Part shown: positions 8,738 to 45,488 of the stretch, one piece after another
Layout of the letters: each line of letters starts with the position of its first letter
Position numbering within the stretch: the first letter of the stretch is position 1
IMG/VR virus record: IMGVR_UViG_3300020383_000002
Span: 1-51,018 of that record
Source: a virus
DNA: 51,018 nucleotides
Direction: 5' to 3' (one strand)
Program-made: the position numbers and the translations under genes
Notes under the pieces: generated by a model
Databases searched by the model: none
Seen by the model: only the letters and a program-made list of their open reading frames with translations
Told to the model about the DNA's origin: nothing

Positions 8738-8811
8738 GCCCCTGTAGCTCAATTGAATAGAGCATGTCCCTTCTAAGGACAGGGTTGTAGGTTTGAATCC
8801 TACCAGGGGCG
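8738..8811 (+). tRNA. tRNA-Arg (anticodon TCT)
   Basis: 74-base cloverleaf: acceptor GCCCCTG pairs with CAGGGGC, the D arm has GCTC/GAGC, the anticodon stem GTCC/GGAC encloses loop CTTCTAA with anticodon TCT, and the T arm is GTAGG-TTTGAAT-CCTAC. CCA is not encoded. It would read AGA codons, which are used in the phage late and early genes. It is the only tRNA I can see in the genome. Confidence 0.93.
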
Positions 8812-8831
8812 CTTATTCGTAAGGACTACCC

Positions 8832-11766: not shown

Positions 11767-13035
11767 ATTTGTGGCTTAGTTGGCGTAGCTGGTGACATTA
11801 ACGCACCAGAGAAGAAAGCCTTTAAAGACCTTCTTCATCTGGACATTCTACGTGGCCCACACTCCACTGGTGTGGCTTCAATCAATGCAACTGGGTGGAA
11901 CCTAGTTAAAAAGAAGGGGAATGCTTGGGACTTGTTCGACACCAAAGCATACGATGAGGTAATGCGTCCCATCTCTTACGCTCTGATTGGGCACAATCGG
12001 TACGCTACCAAGGGTAAGATAAATAACATCAACGCCCACCCCTTTGAATTTGAGCATGTGGTAGGTGCCCATAACGGAACTATCCGTGGGCAGTGGCGAC
12101 TTCCTGACTCTACTGACTTCGAGGTGGACAGTGAGAATATCTTCCACTCTATTGAGACAATGGGACTAGAATCCACACTGGCTGTCTTAGATGGTGCTTA
12201 CGCTTTAACCTATTGGGATAAGCGCACAGAGGAACTTATCCTCTTGCGTAACTCAGAGCGTGAGTTGTCATACTGCTACTCTAAAGATGGCTCTGCCCTC
12301 TTCTGGGCAAGCGAACCTTGGATGTTGCATGTTGCCTTGAGCAGGAACAATGTGAAGTATGGGGAGGTATTTGATGTAGCTCCTTGCCATATCCATCGCT
12401 TCACTTTCCCTCTCAAGTATCAGAAAGATTCACAGGTTAGCTGCTCCATCCAGAAGTTCAAGGAGTTCATCCCCCCTAAGCCTGCTACCACCGCTTATAA
12501 CAGTCCTTATAAGGCGGGTGGTACAAAAAAGCTCGAAGACAAGACAGGAAAGACAGACGAAGTAAGCAAGGTGAAAGACCTCCTTGGTAAACGTATACAG
12601 TTTATCATTGATGGAGTGGCATACACCACTAACCGCCATGCTTACATCTCTGGTACAGCCCTTGAGTATGAGGGCGTAGAGGTTAAGCTCTACCCTCTGC
12701 CACAGAGTAAGCTGTGGAAGGAGCTTATTGCCCTGTCAGGTGACACAATCTTTGAAGGGGATGTAGCTTCCACTGTCCTGTCGGCTAACCAAGTGACTGT
12801 GAACTATCAGACAGTTGAAGAGGTAGAAGATACAGATGAAGACACCATCCTTGGGTATGAGAACAAGTACCTAACAGAGCAGCAATACTTAGAGAAGACG
12901 CATAAAGGCTGTGCTTGGTGTGCGTCTCCTGCTGGATTAAGCCAAGCACAAACAATCATGTGGATTAACCACGACACCTTTGTCTGTGAAGATTGCTCTA
13001 CTACAGACGAAGTGAAAGAACATTTACAGGGGTAG
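11767..13035 (+). CDS. Class II glutamine amidotransferase (Ntn hydrolase), ATT start
   Basis: 422 aa. Frame begins ATT-TGT-GGC, i.e. (M)CGLVGVAGDI, which places the catalytic Cys of class II amidotransferases at residue 2 so it becomes N-terminal after Met removal. The conserved HNRYATKG and GAHNGTI motifs follow at about residues 76-110. An in-frame TAG lies five codons upstream and there is no ATG, GTG or TTG before the Cys, so ATT is the likely start; TAGGAGG is 8 bases upstream. The C-terminus carries CAWC...CEDC, a probable zinc ribbon. The enzyme would supply ammonia from glutamine, probably to the neighbouring COOH-NH2 ligases. Confidence 0.9.
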   Translation: MCGLVGVAGDINAPEKKAFKDLLHLDILRGPHSTGVASINATGWNLVKKKGNAWDLFDTKAYDEVMRPISYALIGHNRYATKGKINNINAHPFEFEHVVGAHNGTIRGQWRLPDSTDFEVDSENIFHSIETMGLESTLAVLDGAYALTYWDKRTEELILLRNSERELSYCYSKDGSALFWASEPWMLHVALSRNNVKYGEVFDVAPCHIHRFTFPLKYQKDSQVSCSIQKFKEFIPPKPATTAYNSPYKAGGTKKLEDKTGKTDEVSKVKDLLGKRIQFIIDGVAYTTNRHAYISGTALEYEGVEVKLYPLPQSKLWKELIALSGDTIFEGDVASTVLSANQVTVNYQTVEEVEDTDEDTILGYENKYLTEQQYLEKTHKGCAWCASPAGLSQAQTIMWINHDTFVCEDCSTTDEVKEHLQG

Positions 13036-13037
13036 TT

Positions 13038-13232
13038 ATGAAGAAATACGGGTACAAAGAGGCCAAAGTGCTAGAGGCCGATAGCTTCTGGAAATACCAT
13101 ATCTATGGTAAAAAGTTTGGTATTTGGTGGAAAATTGGGGGTAGGGATACCCTATCCAGCGCTCGATCAATGGCTACCGGAGCTTTAAAACCTGATAACT
13201 GCGTTTTACACATTAAATCTGAGGAGAAGTAA
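13038..13232 (+). CDS. Hypothetical small protein
   Basis: 64 aa from ATG 13038 two bases after the amidotransferase stop, with CAGGGG upstream. Aromatic and basic (SFWKYHIYGKKFGIWWKIGG). Located between the amidotransferase and the first ligase, so perhaps a subunit of that system. No family recognised. Confidence 0.65.
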   Translation: MKKYGYKEAKVLEADSFWKYHIYGKKFGIWWKIGGRDTLSSARSMATGALKPDNCVLHIKSEEK

Positions 13233-13234
13233 AC

Positions 13235-14068
13235 ATGGCTACTCGTAACGTAATGGTTGGTTGTGATCCTGAGCTGTTTCTGCGTAAAGACGATTCTTTC
13301 GTCTCAGCTTACGGCCTCATCCCTGGTACTAAGGCAGACCCCCACCGTGTACGGTCTGGTGCTGTACAGGTGGATGGTATGGCTGTTGAGTTTAACATTG
13401 AACCTGCCACCACACTACGTGGGTTTAAGTCTCGCATCAAAGCTGTACGCCGTCAGTTAGAGGCTATGCTAGAGGGCTATGAGTTGGTTTCTAGCCCCAT
13501 TGCTCACTTCGATGAGGCATACATGCGTAGTCAGCCAGAGGAAGCCTTAGAGCTAGGCTGTGACCCTGACTACAACGCTTACACAGGGGAGGCTAACGAG
13601 CGTCCTAACGGTAACGTCTCTTTCCGTACAGCAGGGGGTCACGTTCATATTGGCTGGACTACAGATGCTCCTCTTGACCACCCAGACCACGTAGAGGCAT
13701 GTCGTATGCTGACTCGTGAGCTGGACTTCTACCTAGGTGTCCCCTCCTTGTTCTGGGATACAGAGGATGGTCGTCGGGCTATGTATGGTAAGGCAGGGGC
13801 TTTCCGCTCTAAGTCTTATGGTGTTGAGTACCGTAGCCTGAGTAATGCTTGGCTGGCAGATGATGACATCATGGGGTTTGTATTCAAGCAGACACAGAAA
13901 GCCTTTAAGAATTTGGTAGATGGGCATTCCCTCTACAATAAGTCCAGCAATGCTGCTAAAACTGCTGTTGATAATAACGACCGTGAACTAGCCCAGGCCA
14001 TCCTTAACCATGAGGGAGCGATTCTAGATGGAGTAGAGGAGCTGTTTGCACGTATTACAGGAGAGTAA
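13235..14068 (+). CDS. phiEco32-type COOH-NH2 ligase (type 2)
   Basis: 277 aa. Family features visible: GCDPELFL at residues 9-16, VDGMAVEFNIEP near 48-59, and RTAGGHVHIGW near 131-141, the metal/ATP-binding signature of glutamine-synthetase-like carboxylate-amine ligases first described in phage phiEco32. Expected to activate a carboxylate with ATP and join it to an amine. It sits in a five-enzyme amide cluster, two bases after the preceding small gene, with RBS GAGGAG. Substrate unknown; peptide tag, small metabolite or DNA/protein modification are all possible. Confidence 0.88.
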   Translation: MATRNVMVGCDPELFLRKDDSFVSAYGLIPGTKADPHRVRSGAVQVDGMAVEFNIEPATTLRGFKSRIKAVRRQLEAMLEGYELVSSPIAHFDEAYMRSQPEEALELGCDPDYNAYTGEANERPNGNVSFRTAGGHVHIGWTTDAPLDHPDHVEACRMLTRELDFYLGVPSLFWDTEDGRRAMYGKAGAFRSKSYGVEYRSLSNAWLADDDIMGFVFKQTQKAFKNLVDGHSLYNKSSNAAKTAVDNNDRELAQAILNHEGAILDGVEELFARITGE

Positions 14069-14069
14069 T

Positions 14070-14648
14070 ATGCTCTTTGACAACATGCGAGACGCTATTA
14101 GTCGTCTCTCAGACACAGTGGTAACCTACCGAGGCAAGGCCATGTTTGTTGAGGGCATCACCGATAACTTAGAGTTATCGGGTTTCCTCATCCTAGGGCG
14201 TGAGCCTGTTGTAGCTTCACAGGACGACCCTTCCCTTAACATGGCTTGCCCTGAGGTAGGGTTTGTCAACACTGAAAGCGGTGCTCACTACTTCATGCGT
14301 CAGCCTATGAGACGCTGGAAACAAGGCATCGACTTCCGTGCCCTTGTATGCCCCTACTCAGGTATCCGCCCTCGTGGCCTCCTCACTCTTGAGGATTTGG
14401 CGAAGTGTTTAGAAAATGTCTACCCCAGCTTTGAGGAGGCTTCCCATACACAACGTAGTCTCAACCCTTTTAAGCAGAGGGAAGAGCTACATAGTCTAGC
14501 CTTTTGTAAGACATTCTCTGTAAGCGAGGGGCCGAGTGGCCTCTTGCTTAACTACAAGGGGCGTGAGGTGGGGGTTGTAGAGAGAGGCAACCCTGTACTA
14601 GCCCCTAAGTTTGAATGGCTACGTGAGTCTCTACAGGAGGCTATGTAA
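14070..14648 (+). CDS. Hypothetical protein in amide-ligase cluster
   Basis: 192 aa, ATG 14070 chosen over an upstream in-frame start because AGGAGAG precedes it. Sequence includes VTYRGKAMFVEGI and SEGPSGLLLNYKGREVGVV, suggesting a beta-rich fold. No family recognised. Starts directly after the type-2 ligase and its stop overlaps the next gene (TAATG), so it is co-translated with the cluster. Confidence 0.75.
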   Translation: MLFDNMRDAISRLSDTVVTYRGKAMFVEGITDNLELSGFLILGREPVVASQDDPSLNMACPEVGFVNTESGAHYFMRQPMRRWKQGIDFRALVCPYSGIRPRGLLTLEDLAKCLENVYPSFEEASHTQRSLNPFKQREELHSLAFCKTFSVSEGPSGLLLNYKGREVGVVERGNPVLAPKFEWLRESLQEAM

Positions 14649-14860
14649 TGGCTAGAAAATTATTCTTTGCAAAGGTTAATGACACACCACGGATGAGGCA
14701 TTACCGAGTCTCTGGACTGATTGGGGGCACTGTTGTGGTGTATAAGAACCTCTCCACAGACACGGTGGTTTTTCTTGAAAGAAGGCGGATTACAGAATAT
14801 GGTTTTCTGGAACATTGTGGCGGAATAGTTGGCCTTGACTACACCCTCTTACACGATTGA
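14648..14860 (+). CDS. Hypothetical small protein in amide-ligase cluster
   Basis: 70 aa, starting on a TAATG overlap with AGGAGG upstream. Predicted beta-strand rich (HYRVSGLIGGTVVVYKNLSTDTVVFLERR). Might be an accessory or acceptor protein for the ligases, but only context supports this. Confidence 0.65.
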   Translation: MARKLFFAKVNDTPRMRHYRVSGLIGGTVVVYKNLSTDTVVFLERRRITEYGFLEHCGGIVGLDYTLLHD

Positions 14861-14870
14861 GGAGATTAAC

Positions 14871-15770
14871 ATGACAGTGGCTAAGATGTTTGGGCTACGT
14901 AGAACATGCAATGCAGATGTAGGTATTGAGATTGAAGTGGAAGGCAAGCGTCTCCCATACGACCGAGTGAGCAGCACATACTGGCATGTAGAAGGGGACG
15001 GTAGCCTACGTGGTGATGGCTTAGAGAACGCCTGTGAGTTTGTACTGGCAGAGCCTATGTCTCTTGGTAAGGCTAAGGATGCGTTAGTACACTTGGATGA
15101 CTGTTACGAGAAGAACAAGTCTGTGGTTAACGACTCTCCTCGTGCTGGTGTACACATCCACGTTAACTGCCAGAATCTCTCTCTCCTTGAGCTGTATAAC
15201 TTCATCACTGCCTATCTCATCTTTGAGAACTGCCTTGTATCTTTCTGCGGGCCAGATCGTGAGGGCAACCTCTTCTGCTTACGAGCTAAGGATGCTGAAT
15301 ACCTCATCTACTCTCTATGCCGTGCATTAGAGACAGGTTCTTATCGGCGTACTCTATGTACTGATGAGTTACGTTATGCCTCTATGAACGTCCGTGCCCT
15401 AGGTTCTTATGGCTCTCTTGAGTTCCGAGCTATGAGAGGCACCCGAGACATGGGCAGAATTGCTCTGTGGGCAGAGATTCTAGTTAACTTGAGGGATAGG
15501 TCAGTTTCTTTCCAAAACCCCGTAGAGATGATTATGGAGAGTTCTGAGGGGGGCTTTGAAGCATTGGCTGAGAAGTTATTTGGAGAGCACGCTAGTGTCA
15601 TCTATGCTCAACCTGACTGGCAGGCTAAGGCTGTAGAGGGTATGCGGAGAGCACAAGAGGTTGCCTTCTCTGGGGATTGGGAGGAGATTGCCAGCCTCCC
15701 AAAGCGCCAAGTTGGGGGCGTGACAGTGACAGAGGATTGGGACGACGACTTCCCCCCGATAGACTTTTAA
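14871..15770 (+). CDS. Amidoligase family enzyme
   Basis: 299 aa from ATG 14871 (GAGGAG upstream; a frame extension to 14829 overlaps the previous gene and has no RBS). Motifs typical of the putative amidoligase family: VGIEIEVEGKR near residue 15, AGVHIHVNCQN near 90, and SLEFRAMRGTRDM near 195. The family shares the glutamine-synthetase-like ATP/Mg fold and forms amide or peptide bonds. Together with the type-2 ligase it gives this phage two different carboxylate-amine ligases. Confidence 0.85.
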   Translation: MTVAKMFGLRRTCNADVGIEIEVEGKRLPYDRVSSTYWHVEGDGSLRGDGLENACEFVLAEPMSLGKAKDALVHLDDCYEKNKSVVNDSPRAGVHIHVNCQNLSLLELYNFITAYLIFENCLVSFCGPDREGNLFCLRAKDAEYLIYSLCRALETGSYRRTLCTDELRYASMNVRALGSYGSLEFRAMRGTRDMGRIALWAEILVNLRDRSVSFQNPVEMIMESSEGGFEALAEKLFGEHASVIYAQPDWQAKAVEGMRRAQEVAFSGDWEEIASLPKRQVGGVTVTEDWDDDFPPIDF

Positions 15771-15811
15771 CCGCTGAGGAAATAGCTAATAGCTGGACAG
15801 AAGCTAGAGAA

Positions 15812-15883
15812 ATGCCCTCAACCCGACACACCATTACCTTCGATGAAGCAGTTGATCTTGGACTAATTAGAGGTTATCACTAA
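15812..15883 (+). CDS. Possible small ORF between ligase genes
   Basis: Short frame (MPSTRHTITFDEAVDLGLIR) ending on a TAATG overlap with the ATP-grasp gene. The frame is open further upstream into the amidoligase gene without a convincing start. It may be a real coupled small gene or only coupling sequence. Confidence 0.3.
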   Translation: MPSTRHTITFDEAVDLGLIRGYH

Positions 15884-16653
15884 TGCGTAATACAATCCTA
15901 TACCCGTACAAGCCTGGAAGTAACTCAGCTCGTGAGTTAGCTCGTGAGTTAGAAGTACGCCGTATGTCACATCGTAACTCTACATTCCGTGGCAACCCTA
16001 ACAAACTTGTAATTAACTGGGGGGCTTCACGCTTACCAGAAGAGGCTCTTAAGTGTCAAGTTATTAACGAACCTGACGCTGTACGACGTGCCTCTGATAA
16101 GCTACAGTTCTTCACTCATGCTGATTGCCGTAAGCCTTGGTGGACAGAGAGTTGGCAAGAGGCTATTGAGTATTGTAATGAAGAGGGGGCGACTATTGTT
16201 GTACGCCACGTACTCAATGGGCATAGTGGTGAGGGCATCCAGCTTGTAGAGCCTGGGAACTATATGCCAGAGGGTGCCCCGCTATACACAGCCTATGTCC
16301 CTAAGAAACATGAATACCGCGTCCATGTATTTAATGGGGAGGTTATTGATGTTCAACGTAAGGCACGTCGTCGTGACGTAGCTGATGAAGATGTCAACTG
16401 GAAGGTGCGTAATAATGCTAATGGCTTTGTATTTGCTCGGAACGGTGACGCTCTTGGTACTGTCCCAGATGACGTACTTCGTCAGGCCACCCAAGCAGTC
16501 ACGAGTCTTAACCTGCACTTTGGTGCTGCTGATGTTATCTTTAACGAGCGTCAATCTCTGGCTTATGTACTAGAGGTTAACACTGCCCCTGGTTTAGAGG
16601 GCACTACCCTAACTAACTATGCTAACGCTTTCCGGAGCCTGCGAGATGAATAA
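15883..16653 (+). CDS. ATP-grasp domain ligase
   Basis: 256 aa. The C-terminal half carries the ATP-grasp Mg-binding signature (AYVLEVNTAPGLEGTTL, near residues 228-244) and the middle has the lysine-containing strand region (KKHEYRVHVFNGEVIDVQRKARR). The N-terminus (YPYKPGSNSARELARELEVRRM) resembles the substrate-side domain of phage and RimK-like members. It would form an acylphosphate and couple a carboxylate to an amine. Overlaps the upstream frame by one base; part of the cluster with amidotransferase, two amidoligases and cyclotransferase. Confidence 0.88.
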   Translation: MRNTILYPYKPGSNSARELARELEVRRMSHRNSTFRGNPNKLVINWGASRLPEEALKCQVINEPDAVRRASDKLQFFTHADCRKPWWTESWQEAIEYCNEEGATIVVRHVLNGHSGEGIQLVEPGNYMPEGAPLYTAYVPKKHEYRVHVFNGEVIDVQRKARRRDVADEDVNWKVRNNANGFVFARNGDALGTVPDDVLRQATQAVTSLNLHFGAADVIFNERQSLAYVLEVNTAPGLEGTTLTNYANAFRSLRDE

Positions 16654-18251: not shown

Positions 18252-18766
18252 TGGAGGCTACACAATATTTTTACTTGCGAGTTCTTGGGGAGTTGCCAAT
18301 ACGGACTAAAGACCGGCGTGTAAAGTACGCTTGTGTATGTAAATGTGGAAACCTCGTAGCCGTTGCAGGAAGAGCCTTGCGGAAGGGTACAACTAAAAGC
18401 TGCGGATGTTACCTAAAAGATCATGCTATTAGTTTCAATAAAGAAACTAAGACTAAAAAAGTGGAAGGTATCAGAACAAAATTACATCCGCTATTCCGAA
18501 CTTACTCGGGAATGAAAACACGTTGTCTTAATGAAAAACACACTTACTACCACTGCTATGGTGGGAGGGGTATCACGATTTGTGACAGATGGTTAAACTC
18601 TTTTGAAGCCTTCGTAGAAGACATGGGGCCAAGACCAGAAGGACATACCCTAGACCGTATTGACAACGATGGCAACTATGAACCTGGGAACTGTCGTTGG
18701 GCGACTCGTAAAGAGCAAGCGAATAACCGATCAAACAATGTAGGAGGGGAGAATGGCAGGAACTAG
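18251..18766 (+). CDS. Free-standing HNH homing endonuclease
   Basis: 171 aa from ATG 18251 (AGGAGG 4 bases upstream). N-terminal zinc finger-like CVCKCGN...CGCY, then the typical phage HNH arrangement: [22 protein letters not shown], and [22 protein letters not shown] containing the catalytic His/Asn residues. It is inserted between the MazG-like gene and the primase-helicase, overlapping the latter's start, a typical location for an endonuclease that targets the neighbouring gene. Confidence 0.88.
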
Positions 18767-19730
18767 CCTTTTTAAACTCCCACATAGTTGTTCCTCTAGC
18801 GATGGTCTTCAAGTATTTGAGCAAGAAGATGGTACGGTGGATGGCTATTGTTATAGTTGTAAGACATACGTACCAGACCCACTCAAAGGCCAAGCTGTAG
18901 AAGACTTTCCTGTAAAGAAAAGGTTGAAGAAGTCTAAAGAGGAGATTCAAGCAGAGATAGAGGAGATTAACTCCTACCCAGTAGATGACTTGCGTAGTCG
19001 TATGCTTCGTAAGAAGTCCCTTGAGAAGTATGGTATTAAGCTGGGGTACGATGAAACAGACGGCCAAACTGTCAAGTTCATGTACTTTCCCTACACTAAG
19101 GATGGTGAGCTTAAGTCATATAAGGTGAAGCTGTTAGAGCCTAAGAAGTTCTGGGCTTTAGGAGATCAATCTGATGTAGATTTATTCGGATGGGAACAAG
19201 CTGTAGCCACTGGTGCTAAGCGTCTAATAATTGTGGAAGGTGAGTTAGACGTACCAGCTCTTGACCGCATATTAGAAATGCACACCAGTGAGAAGTGGAA
19301 GGACATGATTCCTGCTGTGGCTTCTCTCCCTCATGGGGCAGCGTCTGCTGGTAAAGACTTAGCTAGGCTAGCCTCTAAGATTAGGCGTCACTTCAAAGAT
19401 ATTAGCTTCTGCTTTGATAATGACAAAGCAGGAAGGGACGCATTAGAAGCAGCAATGAAGGTGTTCCCTGATGCTACGTCCATTGACCTTCCTTGTAAAG
19501 ATGCTAACGACTGTATCCTGCAAGGTAAAACTAAAGCAGCTCACAAGGCTGTTACCTTCAACGCTAGCAAAGCAAAAAACACAAGGCTAGTGTGGGGAAG
19601 AGAAGTCCATGAGATTGCTAAGGTGCCTGCCCAATGGGGTGTACCCTGGCCCTGGAAGCGTCTCACAGAGCTCACACGGGGAATTCGTACCGGAGAGACC
19701 TACTACCTAGGCGCTGCTCAGAAAATGGGT
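18753..19730 (+). CDS. T7 gp4-like primase-helicase, exon 1
   Basis: 326 codons. N-terminal zinc-binding region ([14 protein letters not shown]...YCYSCKTY) resembles the T7 gp4 zinc finger, with one ligand apparently His11. TOPRIM primase motifs [14 protein letters not shown] and [13 protein letters not shown] follow. The exon ends in the Walker A loop (GAAQKMG). The 5' splice site is supported by pairing of exon AUGGGU with intron GCCCAU, with U.G at the cleavage site. Spliced to 20319-20993, the protein is 550 aa, close to T7 gp4 (566 aa). RBS GGAGGGG at 18744. Confidence 0.93.
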
Positions 19731-20318
19731 TTGTAAAAGCCCATGTAAAAGACATTGAATTCAGGGGAAGCCTAGAACAGGTAATCCTGAGCCAAGCTAT
19801 CCTGCCTCTTTGAAAAGGAGGCGCTTATGAGAGTAAAAGATTACCCGAACTATCGAGTGTACGAGGATGGCACAGTAGTAGGTGCCCGTGGTAAGATTCT
19901 CAAGCAAGATGAGAACTCCACTGGGTACAAACGTGTCAGCCTATGTAAGAATGGAATTGTCAAAAGAGTTTTCGTACATCGACTTGTGGCTGAACATTTT
20001 GTCGAAGGTTATGAGGACGGGAAGGTTGTTAACCATATCGATGGTGACAATCAGAATAATCATAAAGACAATCTGGAATGGGCCACCATGTCTGAGAATG
20101 TCAGAGATGGTTGGCTTAGAGGACGAGATTCCTCTCACTTACACTTGAACTTTAGACGGGCAGGGTAGAAGGTGCAACGACTATCCCGAAAGGGAGTAGG
20201 GCCAAGTGGCTCGAAGCGGTGTCCTCCAAAAGGAGATGATATAGTCTGGTCTGCATGGGGACATGCAGCAGTTCATAAGAGAACGGGCAGGGCTTAACGA
20301 ACCCTGTCGAACACTACG
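19731..20318 (+). mobile_element. Group I intron in primase-helicase gene (588 bp)
   Basis: Interrupts the Walker A motif between Gly and Lys codons. 5' end: exon AUGGGU^ pairs with GCCCAU (19740-19745). 3' end: last base G (20318), after which AAG-AGC restores GAAQKMGKS. P7 strands GACTAT (20179-20184) and ATAGTC (20241-20246) are visible, and GATGATATAGTCT is shared with the capsid-gene intron (GATGTTATAGTCT), suggesting the same intron subgroup. No P10 pairing is evident. It contains an HNH endonuclease gene. Confidence 0.9.
19827..20168 (+). CDS. Intron-encoded HNH homing endonuclease
   Basis: 113 aa with RBS AAAAGGAGG. N-terminal NUMOD4-like strand (DYPNYRVYEDGTVVGARGKIL) and HNH motif (VHRLVAEHFV...VNHIDGDNQNNHKDNLEWAT) with His-Asn-His type catalytic residues. 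Located in a peripheral loop of the group I intron upstream of the P7 strands. It would cut intronless helicase alleles and drive intron homing. Confidence 0.92.
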   Translation: MRVKDYPNYRVYEDGTVVGARGKILKQDENSTGYKRVSLCKNGIVKRVFVHRLVAEHFVEGYEDGKVVNHIDGDNQNNHKDNLEWATMSENVRDGWLRGRDSSHLHLNFRRAG

Positions 20319-20993
20319 AAGAGCGAGGTTGTGAACACCCTAGGGGCATGGCTAATTGAGCAGGTGGGTTGGTCTGTAATGATGGCTAAGCCAGAGGAGG
20401 CTAACGCTAAGACATACAAACTTGTAGCGGGAAAGATTGCTGGTAAGATTTTCCATGACCCTAAAGTAGAGTTTGATGAGGAGGCTTACGACAGGGCTGG
20501 GGATATTATCCAAGACAAGTTGTGTATGGTAAATCTGTATCAACACCTTGGATGGGAGACGCTACAGACAGACATCAGATCAGCCGCTGCTGAGGGGTGC
20601 AAGGCTATCTTTATAGACCCTATCACTAACCTCACTAACGGTATGAACGCTGCTGATGCTAATACGAAGCTACAAGAGATTGCTCAAGAACTCGCAGCTA
20701 TGGCTAAAGATCTTGATGTTGCTATCTTTATATTCTGCCATCTTCGTAATCCCGATAGTGGTCTTTCTCACGACCGTGGAGGGCATGTCCTTACTAGCCA
20801 GTTTGCTGGCAGTCGTGCCATGGGTCGTAGTTGTAATTATATGTTCGGACTTGAGGGGAACAAAGACCCAGAACTCTCAGAAGAAGAAAGAAACGTAAGA
20901 CACTTGGTTCTCCTTGATGACAGGGAGTTTGGTGAGGTAGGTAGTGTACCTCTGTTCTGGAACCGTAAGACTGGATTGTTTTCGGAGATGTAA
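20319..20993 (+). CDS. T7 gp4-like primase-helicase, exon 2
   Basis: 225 codons including stop. Begins KSEVVNTLGAWLIEQ, completing Walker A (GKS). Walker B-like KAIFIDPITNL, a FIFCHLR strand (H4-like) and SRAMGRSCNYMFGLEGN (Arg finger region) identify a RecA-like DnaB-family helicase core. A GTG at 20331 is only an internal codon, not a start. Drives unwinding and primer synthesis at the fork with the polymerase encoded 0.7 kb downstream. Confidence 0.93.
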   Translation, partial: KSEVVNTLGAWLIEQVGWSVMMAKPEEANAKTYKLVAGKIAGKIFHDPKVEFDEEAYDRAGDIIQDKLCMVNLYQHLGWETLQTDIRSAAAEGCKAIFIDPITNLTNGMNAADANTKLQEIAQELAAMAKDLDVAIFIFCHLRNPDSGLSHDRGGHVLTSQFAGSRAMGRSCNYMFGLEGNKDPELSEEERNVRHLVLLDDREFGEVGSVPLFWNRKTGLFSEM

Positions 20994-43600: not shown

Positions 43601-44273
43601 TTAGTAGTTAGAAGCAGAAGTGATTAGGACGCCCAGAGTGTCTACACGCTGTACACCCATACCCCAGCGAGCACGTACTACGAACTCATCACGAGCACGG
43701 TCTTTGTTACGCTCACCTTCAGACTTGGGCATACGACGCCATGCAGCCATTACAGGCTTGGTTTGGTCATCAAGTACGCACATGAAGATGTTAGCAACAC
43801 CGTCAGTGACAGAGGTAGTGCCGTCAGAGAAAGTGCCACGAGGAAGACGATTGGACTGGATAATATCCCAACCAAACAGGCTCATAACAAAGCGCTGACC
43901 ACGAGCCAAACCTTCTTCCAGAATCTTCTGACCGAAAGGAGTCACATCATGGGTGATTGTTACCAGACGGTTAAGAGTAGCTTCAACAACAGGATCGCAG
44001 ATGAACACTCGGCCTTCAGCAGGTACGTTAGCTTTATCAAAAGCTAGACGCATCTGAATCAGGTGATCAAGAGCGAATACGTTGTTGGTTTCAGAAGAGG
44101 CAATGCGATGCGGGAAACCGTTAATGGTGTTAGGATCAGCATTAACTTGACCAGCTTGTGCAACTGTCAGGAAGCGAGTCTCAAAGTTCTCCTGGATGGC
44201 GCGGGTAGACTCAACAGAACGTTGTGTCATAAGCTGCTCAACCTGAGAACCGTCTTCACGGAGGTCATCAGTA
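43601..44273 (-). CDS. Major capsid protein, exon 2 (C-terminal part)
   Basis: Begins T-ACT-GAT-GAC so that the first codon is completed by the micro-exon (GT|T = Val): ...V TDDLREDGSQVEQLMTQRSVESTRAIQENFETRF. The upstream part of this frame before the internal Met at 44230 is therefore coding. The rest (VFICDPVVEATLNRLVTI, QIL..GWDIIQSNRLPRG) has the features of an HK97-fold capsid of marine podophages. The spliced product, with the 44-nt insertion removed, is 312 aa. Confidence 0.9.
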
Positions 44274-45178
44274 CATTGGGTATTTCAACCCATCAGACTA
44301 TAACATCATCCTTTCGGATGCTTACGGATTTAGTCGTTGCGAGTGTCTCACAGAAGCTACGAAGGTCTTCATCAGTTGCTCCCAATCTCCGGGAGTGCTT
44401 ATTCTTACTGATAAAGTCGTAAGCTATTTCGAGTTGGGTTCTCTTAATCATAAGATGTTTTCCCAAGAACTCGTATAACTCCTGTACCTTAGATGGTGAT
44501 AAGTTAACGCGCCAGTTCGCAGTATTCCTTGTTTCAACTATGTTACCACCAAAAGATTCTTGGAGGAGCTTGACACCCGCTTGAGCGTGTATCCATGTTG
44601 AAACAGACAATCTGCATTCTAGAGAGCCTTTCTTATTAAGGCTTGCGCTAATGCAACCATCCCCGTCAATATACCCAGCAGCCCATCTACGTGAGGGCCG
44701 ATGCTTACAGGGAGTGTTATTCCGTCTAAGGTTTTTAATAACAGACTTGATTGCTTTAAGCTCTGTCTCATCTACAAACTTAGGCAAGGATAGTACGTAT
44801 TTTGCCAAGTCTTGTTTCAGAACCATGTGCTTAAAAGTATGCTCAAGCAGATTGCCGCCCTTCTTTCCTGATACCCTAATCTCATCTGTACCACGAGAGT
44901 TTCTATGTACTGTTAAATTATAGAAGCCAGCTATATCGTGGAGGAGATTACTCCGGTGAGGAAGTTGGGTTATACTGATAACAGGGTAGATTGCAAACCT
45001 ATCTCCAAACTTCTTAGCGTGGATTTGGATGCTACCATCTGCGTCAATAAAGCCTGCTGCATATTTGAAATCAATCATCATACTCTCCGTATGTGTATAA
45101 GTCTATCGAGACTTCTCTCTGGTTAGCCACTACAGCCTTCCAGTTATTTACCATAAGTTTTAAGTATGCTACAAACGA
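44274..45178 (-). mobile_element. Group I intron in major capsid gene (905 bp)
   Basis: 5' splice site: exon GUAUGU^ pairs with intron GCAUAC (45164-45169), with U.G at the cut. P10: the GUA just before that guide pairs with UAC at the start of exon 2. 3' end: final G at 44274. P7 candidates AGACT (45100-45104) and AGTCT (44295-44299). GATGTTATAGTCT near the 3' end resembles the helicase intron. The intron carries a LAGLIDADG endonuclease whose stop codon lies in the 3' core. Confidence 0.92.
44293..45081 (-). CDS. Intron-encoded LAGLIDADG homing endonuclease
   Basis: 262 aa with two LAGLIDADG motifs, AAGFIDADGSI near residue 8 and AAGYIDGDGCI near 134, so it should act as a monomer with a pseudo-symmetric DNA-binding surface. 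Both catalytic Asp are present. RBS GGAGAG. Its 3' end (VSIRKDDVIV) overlaps conserved bases of the ribozyme. It would cleave intronless capsid genes at the intron site. Confidence 0.95.
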   Translation of the reverse strand: MMIDFKYAAGFIDADGSIQIHAKKFGDRFAIYPVISITQLPHRSNLLHDIAGFYNLTVHRNSRGTDEIRVSGKKGGNLLEHTFKHMVLKQDLAKYVLSLPKFVDETELKAIKSVIKNLRRNNTPCKHRPSRRWAAGYIDGDGCISASLNKKGSLECRLSVSTWIHAQAGVKLLQESFGGNIVETRNTANWRVNLSPSKVQELYEFLGKHLMIKRTQLEIAYDFISKNKHSRRLGATDEDLRSFCETLATTKSVSIRKDDVIV

Positions 45179-45198: not shown

Positions 45199-45242
45199 CG
45201 ATCTTATGACGCTTTTACGACTACATTGGCTTAATGAATAAT
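45199..45242 (-). other. 44-nt frame-breaking insertion with group I-like guide (candidate core-less mini-intron or bypass element)
   Basis: Lies between GAC-TAT and ATT-GGC of the capsid gene, is not a multiple of 3 and has an in-frame TAA (45231-45233). It begins after U and ends in G. Inside it, GCCAAUGUAGUC (12 nt) is complementary to the joined flanks GACUAU|AUUGGC, with a single U.G pair exactly at the junction: the arrangement of P1 plus P10 in group I introns. The bases after the guide (GUAAAAG) also match those after the guide of the helicase intron. No room for a catalytic core. ATT occurs at both edges, which would also allow peptidyl-tRNA re-pairing in a translational bypass. Confidence 0.85.
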
Positions 45243-45488
45243 ATAGTCAGTCATCTGCATGGTTACTTCACCAGTTTCAATCGGTGCGTAAACCAGCGGA
45301 GTGTCTTCAGCAGCTTCTTGGATGGTTACAGAACCAACGGTCTTGATACGCAGAGTATCACCAGAACCGAAGTCAGATACGTTGCGGTAGAAGGACTCCG
45401 GCAGGAGGCCATCGTGGAGGTTCATCAGGATGAACTGAGAATAAACCTCGGACTCGATAAACGCACGAGTATTAGTTGTAACTTGCAT
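45243..45488 (-). CDS. Major capsid protein, exon 1 (N-terminal part)
   Basis: 82 codons (MQVTTNTRAFIESEVYSQFI ... VTMQMTDY) with RBS AAAGGAAAA. Without removal of the 44-nt insertion, translation ends after three more codons (IIH, stop), giving an 85-aa fragment. The N-terminal arm and the ETGEVTMQMTDY strand fit the start of an HK97-type capsid. Follows the scaffold gene with a 13-base gap. Confidence 0.9.

Follow-up and report, generated by a model that had tools for sequence, protein, structure and literature searches.

How a phage could make its major capsid protein from a gene broken by a short, stop-containing insert is the question raised by IMG/VR virus record IMGVR_UViG_3300020383_000002, the single genome of an uncultured phage. 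The record, studied over its whole length of 51,018 nucleotides (nt) and called the window below, carries a major capsid gene on the minus strand (45488-43601) with two interruptions, one of 44 nt followed by one of 905 nt. The 44 nt are a real insertion with splice-type signals and no catalytic core, and an intact group I intron lies beside them. The reading preferred here, which is given a probability of roughly 0.35-0.37 on sequence grounds, is that the insert is a natural core-less group I mini-intron that brings its own guide and would be excised by the core of its neighbor, such that one ribozyme serves two introns. The parts of the gene are arranged as follows.

45243-45488, minus strand: exon 1 of the major capsid gene, codons 1-82, ending in MTDY (capsid family PF25209/phrog_267)
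45199-45242, minus strand: 44-nt core-less insertion, candidate mini-intron, not in the homologues examined; register set by the preceding U and the terminal G
45231-45233, minus strand: in-frame stop TAA, read as CAT TAA
45179-45198, minus strand: middle exon of 20 nt, ATTGGCGACGCTTGGTATGT (IGDAWYV), strongly conserved among homologues
44274-45178, minus strand: intact group I intron of 905 nt with P1 GGUAUGU/GCAUACU, P3 CUUAUGG/CCGUAAG, P7 GACUA/UAGUC, P9, and a terminal G
44293-45081, minus strand: LAGLIDADG homing endonuclease open reading frame (ORF) within the 905-nt intron (PF00961, E=2e-13)
43601-44273, minus strand: last exon of the major capsid gene, TDDLREDG... to the stop

On the minus strand, the order is ATG ACT GAC TAT, the insert ATTATTCATTAAGCCAATGTAGTCGTAAAAGCGTCATAAGATCG, ATT GGC GAC GCT TGG TAT GT, the 905-nt intron, and T ACT GAT GAC.... 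The insert breaks the capsid frame at codon 83 by bringing in the TAA after TDYIIH; an early in-frame CAT TAA soon after the 5′ junction is also present in the introns of the related loci L101 and L055. Removal of both interruptions yields a capsid gene of 313 codons, equal in length to those of L055 and L088, and homologues read straight through the site, which bears out an earlier note on this DNA that described a frame-breaking insertion whose removal restores the gene. The IMG/VR capsid loci, fetched by a capsid query, read TDY[IVK]GDAWYVTDD uninterrupted, with the exception of loci holding full-length introns, and alignments with 116 INPHARED relatives cover at least 80% of the capsid protein, in a single piece in nearly all matches listed. 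The TDYIGDAWYV block is never expanded among these homologues and none of them carries residues of the insert, whose presence in homologues would have spoken against the earlier note. A second intact capsid gene, which would have done likewise, was looked for and is absent from the genome. By this comparison, the insertion counts as a genuine evolutionary change. The same alignments tell against a -1 ribosomal frameshift ahead of the TAA, which had also been proposed and would add 14 residues (YSLSQCSRKSVIRS). The insert is free of stops in the landing frame, but an open frame of 14 codons has a ~50% chance of occurring, no slippery heptamer is present, and no homologue tolerates extra residues in TDYIGDAWYV. 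Frameshifting is essentially rejected, with barely a trace of probability left to it.

The insert must be removed or skipped, or else the phage is dead. The window is probably a complete genome, since its ends repeat as expected for a circular assembly and the contig closes.

1-77 and 50942-51018: exact direct terminal repeat of 77 nt, expected of k=77 circular assembly

It resembles Zobellviridae in gene order and in protein matches, and when two annotated relatives were compared with it by mapping their proteins, frame-breaking interruptions were found in the capsid gene and in a helicase gene alone, the other compared genes being intact. The capsid gene differs from that of L055 at 102 synonymous and 23 non-synonymous codons and is, on this count, under strong purifying selection. 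As the capsid protein is essential and encoded by a single gene copy, removal of the insert at the RNA level is probable; the capsid peptide predicted for either removal or bypass is TDYIGDAWYVTDDLR. Alternatively, the intron may have lost its core only recently, leaving the capsid gene broken in a molecule that survives by co-infection or represents a transient dead end. Such a dead remnant would be compatible with the fact that nothing shows removal and that the insert occurs in no relative, and descent alone could preserve its splice signals. It is unlikely, however, in a contig that is the consensus of an assembled population and forms a closed genome with its other genes intact; the flank match is exact, the exons are without sign of decay, and a lytic phage unable to make its capsid protein would not be expected to become so abundant.

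The junctions of the insert can be drawn in four registers because ATT flanks it on both sides, and only register 0 combines a U before the insert with a terminal G. In that register, the following elements are recognizable.

45243-45249, minus strand: 5′ strand of P1, UGACUAU, in exon 1; U45243 pairs with G45224
45225-45230, minus strand: P10 guide GCCAAU, six Watson-Crick pairs with the 3′ exon AUUGGC (45198-45193); duplex -6.2 kcal/mol
45219-45224, minus strand: 3′ strand of P1, GUAGUC, the guide half for the 5′ exon; G45218 could add one G.U pair
45213-45218, minus strand: linker GUAAAA after P1, equal to J1/3 of the L092 intron; the neighboring intron has UAAAA
45208-45214, minus strand: AAGCGUC, forming a hairpin of 7 base pairs with the exon segment GACGCUU (45192-45186), pair probabilities 0.8-0.9
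45199, minus strand: terminal G of the insert, omega-G position in register 0

The guide GCCAAUGUAGUC pairs with the joined exons GACUAU/AUUGGC at 12 of 12 positions, all Watson-Crick except the U.G at the junction, and at 13 positions with the next U.G. It suits the synonymous codons of this phage (GAC TAT ATT GGC) and not those of the nearest relative, L055 (GAC TAC ATC GGC). The absence of a ribozyme core, claimed before, is borne out: no P3′, P7, or P8 is present in the 44 nt, which, lacking P3-P8, cannot splice unaided. The insert is not classed as a group I intron in its own right and is probably the remnant of one.

In the main chance test, random 44-nt pieces of the phage genome were placed at random junctions (n=1,000,000). 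A P1 of at least six pairs, a P10 of at least six pairs, a U.G at the junction, and a terminal G coincided once per 1,000,000 random 44-mers, in agreement with the earlier contention that these signals exceed chance; a looser criterion (any complementary run of at least 13, G.U free) is reached in ~0.1-0.4% of random cases. The prefix match of the GUAAAA linker to J1/3 of the intron family has a p of about 0.006-0.01. A rival proposition is that the insert never was an intron and arose by (i) an inverted template-switch, (ii) mis-repair that left filler DNA at the break made by a homing endonuclease, or (iii) an assembly or amplification chimera. In its support, two parts of the flanking exon, GACGCTT and GACTACATTGGC, recur in the reverse complement of the insert; inverted near-copies of the adjoining exon, 12 nt and 7 nt long, are present, the insertion falls at an intron-target codon, and a 3-nt ATT repeat marks its ends. 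Such an origin nevertheless leaves 24 of the 44 nt unexplained and without a template elsewhere in the genome, where no match is longer than in shuffles. It also fails to explain GUAAAA and the terminal G, or why the sole mismatch of the 12-nt copy is a U.G placed exactly at the junction, and a 44-nt artefact would have to prevail across all reads of the contig, for which the 77-nt end repeat points to 77-mer assembly. A non-intron origin is hence judged quite improbable, whereas the combined chance of an artefact, a recently dead allele, or an inverted template-switch is substantial and stays short of even odds.

The intact group I intron reported by the earlier note begins 20 nt downstream of the insert and possesses P1, P3, P7, P9, an omega-G, and a homing ORF. 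Rfam returned no match on the region, even at E<=5, which in the case of the 905-nt intron is probably due to its long ORF. Twelve introns of capsid genes share a common order: P1 - J1/3 - P3 - UAAAUAAC(G)UGG ... CAACGACUAA - P3′ - P8 - AUAGUCU - P9 - G. The P3 helix, located by eye, covaries across all 12, with different bases in each and 78 of 80 positions paired. Judged by these features, the 905-nt interruption is an authentic group I intron. A related intron with a 79% identical endonuclease occupies the same site in L088/L089, which are without the 44 nt. More broadly, this phage group has in its capsid gene a hot spot where group I introns with LAGLIDADG-type ORFs occupy ~5 distinct sites (loci L055, L088/L089, L091, L092/L093, L101, L103, L019, L065, and L082), and three of the sites lie within ~30 nt: TDY/I, DA/W, and WYV/T. 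A related unannotated LAGLIDADG ORF is located directly upstream of the terminase large subunit in L104 (Pseudoalteromonas phage J2-1, 1244-2053) and possibly marks an overlooked intron.

With the Zobellviridae-type capsid introns (L101, L103, L088, L055, L092, and others), the insert shares a P1 with U.G, a P10, a terminal G, a J1/3 of the form (U)AAA(A), an early in-frame stop, and residence in the same gene at the same or an adjacent site. In contrast to these introns, which measure ~850-950 nt, it is 44 nt long and without P3-P9 or an endonuclease. From this pattern, the 44 nt likely go back to the 5′ end of a member of this capsid-colonizing family of group I introns.

Splicing with the core of the neighbor would account for every signal of the insert and would involve the following steps: (i) the remnant would have lost its core and endonuclease and kept three parts, namely, P1 and the guide, the linker J1/3, and a short tail that ends in G; (ii) the intact ribozyme 20 nt downstream would take the self-contained P1/P10 of the insert in place of its own P1; (iii) the core of the neighbor would cut after GACUAU; (iv) the terminal G of the insert would serve as omega-G, and GACUAU would be joined to AUUGGC; and (v) the neighboring intron would afterwards splice itself. 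The P1 of the insert has an energy of -6.3 kcal/mol, compared to -6.2 kcal/mol for that of the neighbor, and the insert has the stronger P10. The neighbor has a J1/3 of ~5 nt and no P2, which suggests that its P1 is a simple, possibly exchangeable helix. As a matter of speculation, its LAGLIDADG protein could act as a maturase. It is also plausible, by analogy with what has been suggested for T4, that the insert confers resistance to homing by splitting the site of the L101/L103 intron.

Engineered systems provide the closest chemistry. Group I ribozymes have been made to excise segments of up to 28 nt in trans, and spliceozymes remove 64-nt introns in Escherichia coli and 100-nt introns in vitro and in cells (PMC4094466). 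As proposed for the insert, a group I core there removes a short segment bounded by U.G/P1 and P10; the window element differs in being natural and in carrying the guide within the candidate excised segment, whereas the engineered guide resides on the ribozyme. Degenerate group I introns of lichen ribosomal DNA have likewise shed catalytic parts and depend on outside help for their removal, yet they are ~300 nt long with a recognizable fold, reside in nuclear rRNA, and have a helper that is thought to be a protein (PMC8527467). If spliced, the insert would be a natural non-autonomous group I intron that parasitizes the ribozyme of another intron, a step long imagined between self-splicing and spliceosomal introns.

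Several points weigh against splicing by the neighboring core. Nine of the guide pairs double as a plain hairpin, GACUAUAUU/AAUGUAGUC, which weakens the one-in-a-million figure; that figure is somewhat overstated because AUU opens both the insert and the 3′ exon. The earlier assertion that a 12-position match is very unlikely by chance needs qualifying for the part that is a plain hairpin made by the repeated AUU. Conditional on the hairpin, a p of 8e-4 remains for the extra GCC/GGC pairs plus the terminal G. The guide bases of group I introns can pair either with the start of the intron (P1 extension) or with the 3′ exon (P10), which compete for them, and an AUU repeat is thus expected there too. 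Local alignments of the 44 nt with real introns (p 0.12-0.94) give nothing significant beyond the 6-nt linker, and plain alignment to intron 5′ or 3′ ends is not significant either. The full introns of the family in L101 and L103 interrupt the same codon as the insert and are offset, lying 2 nt downstream of register 0. Engineered excision in cells reaches only ~5%, which is low for a capsid gene, and relies on a guide on the ribozyme with help from P9.0/P9.2, compared to a guide on the substrate here (PMC4094466). The literature yielded no natural example in which a neighbor excises a core-less group I element, in line with the earlier note. Finally, the exact element occurs once: a 17-mer search of IMG/VR returned two chance matches in unrelated genes and no other copy. 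The other short insertions envisaged in related capsid genes did not materialize, as inserts of 20-50 nt at the same site were limited to an unrelated one in L087, and five matches at the two neighboring intron sites are unrelated as well. A search of GTDB genomes returned no capsid relatives. Near-identical records may be missing from the collections, so the absence of the insert elsewhere is not strong evidence.

The insert could instead be skipped on the ribosome by a programmed bypass similar to that of T4 gene 60, in which case it may still be intron-derived. Peptidyl-tRNA-Ile would leave AUU (45242-45240), cross 44 nt, and land on AUU (45198-45196) to give ...TDY-I-GDAWY. The take-off and landing codons are matched (AUU/AUU), the 44-nt gap is below the 56-nt limit of efficient sliding (PMC11194080), hairpins of 10 and 7 base pairs surround take-off and landing, respectively, and UAAG (45206-45203), 4 nt before landing, weakly resembles the Shine-Dalgarno (SD)-like GAG of gene 60. 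In addition, the gene 60 gap may itself be a degenerate group I intron (review PMC5009743). Both the 50-nt element of gene 60 and the window insert are short and frame-breaking, are confined to one phage lineage and absent from relatives, and have a homing endonuclease nearby. Bypass in gene 60 nevertheless requires a stop right after take-off, a KKYK nascent peptide, and an A-site stem-loop (PMC5009743, PMC11194080). In the insert, by contrast, take-off is followed by a normal codon with no adjoining stop (AUU AUU CAU UAA), residues 50-83 contain no KKYK-like motif and are nearly the same as in the insert-free L055, and the A-site stem-loop is unmatched, the hairpin starting 6-7 nt upstream of take-off. 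Codons that would compete are present as well: an AUU follows take-off immediately, and an AUC stands 4 nt ahead of the landing site. Bypass also leaves the extra P10 pairs with the terminal G and the GUAAAA linker unexplained. A tRNA link is missing, with tRNA-Arg(tct) alone encoded by the phage. Conversely, the gene 60 gap, tested in the same way, has no P1/P10 guide, which is complete in the insert. Bypass, a hypothesis of the earlier note, is thus weaker than first claimed and doubtful overall, and splicing with a borrowed core is somewhat favored over it. The byps of Magnusiomyces mitochondria are also short frame-breaking inserts that need to be skipped, but they number 81 copies on a relaxed mitochondrial ribosome, as opposed to one copy in a phage (PMC5009743). 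If bypassed, the insert would add a second phage case of the gene 60 type and lend weight to the descent of such gaps from group I introns, with the splice guide still readable.

Outside the capsid locus, the helicase/primase gene on the plus strand (ORF 18753-19736, resuming near 20211-20993) is interrupted at ~19730-20270 by what resembles a second, different group I intron with an HNH_3 endonuclease ORF (19827-20168). The sole tRNA of the genome, tRNA-Arg (tct), is located at 8738-8812 on the plus strand. A plus-strand cluster of amidoligase, ATP-grasp, COOH-NH2 ligase, and aminotransferase-like genes (11767-16650), whose products are putative, is common to the relative L105.
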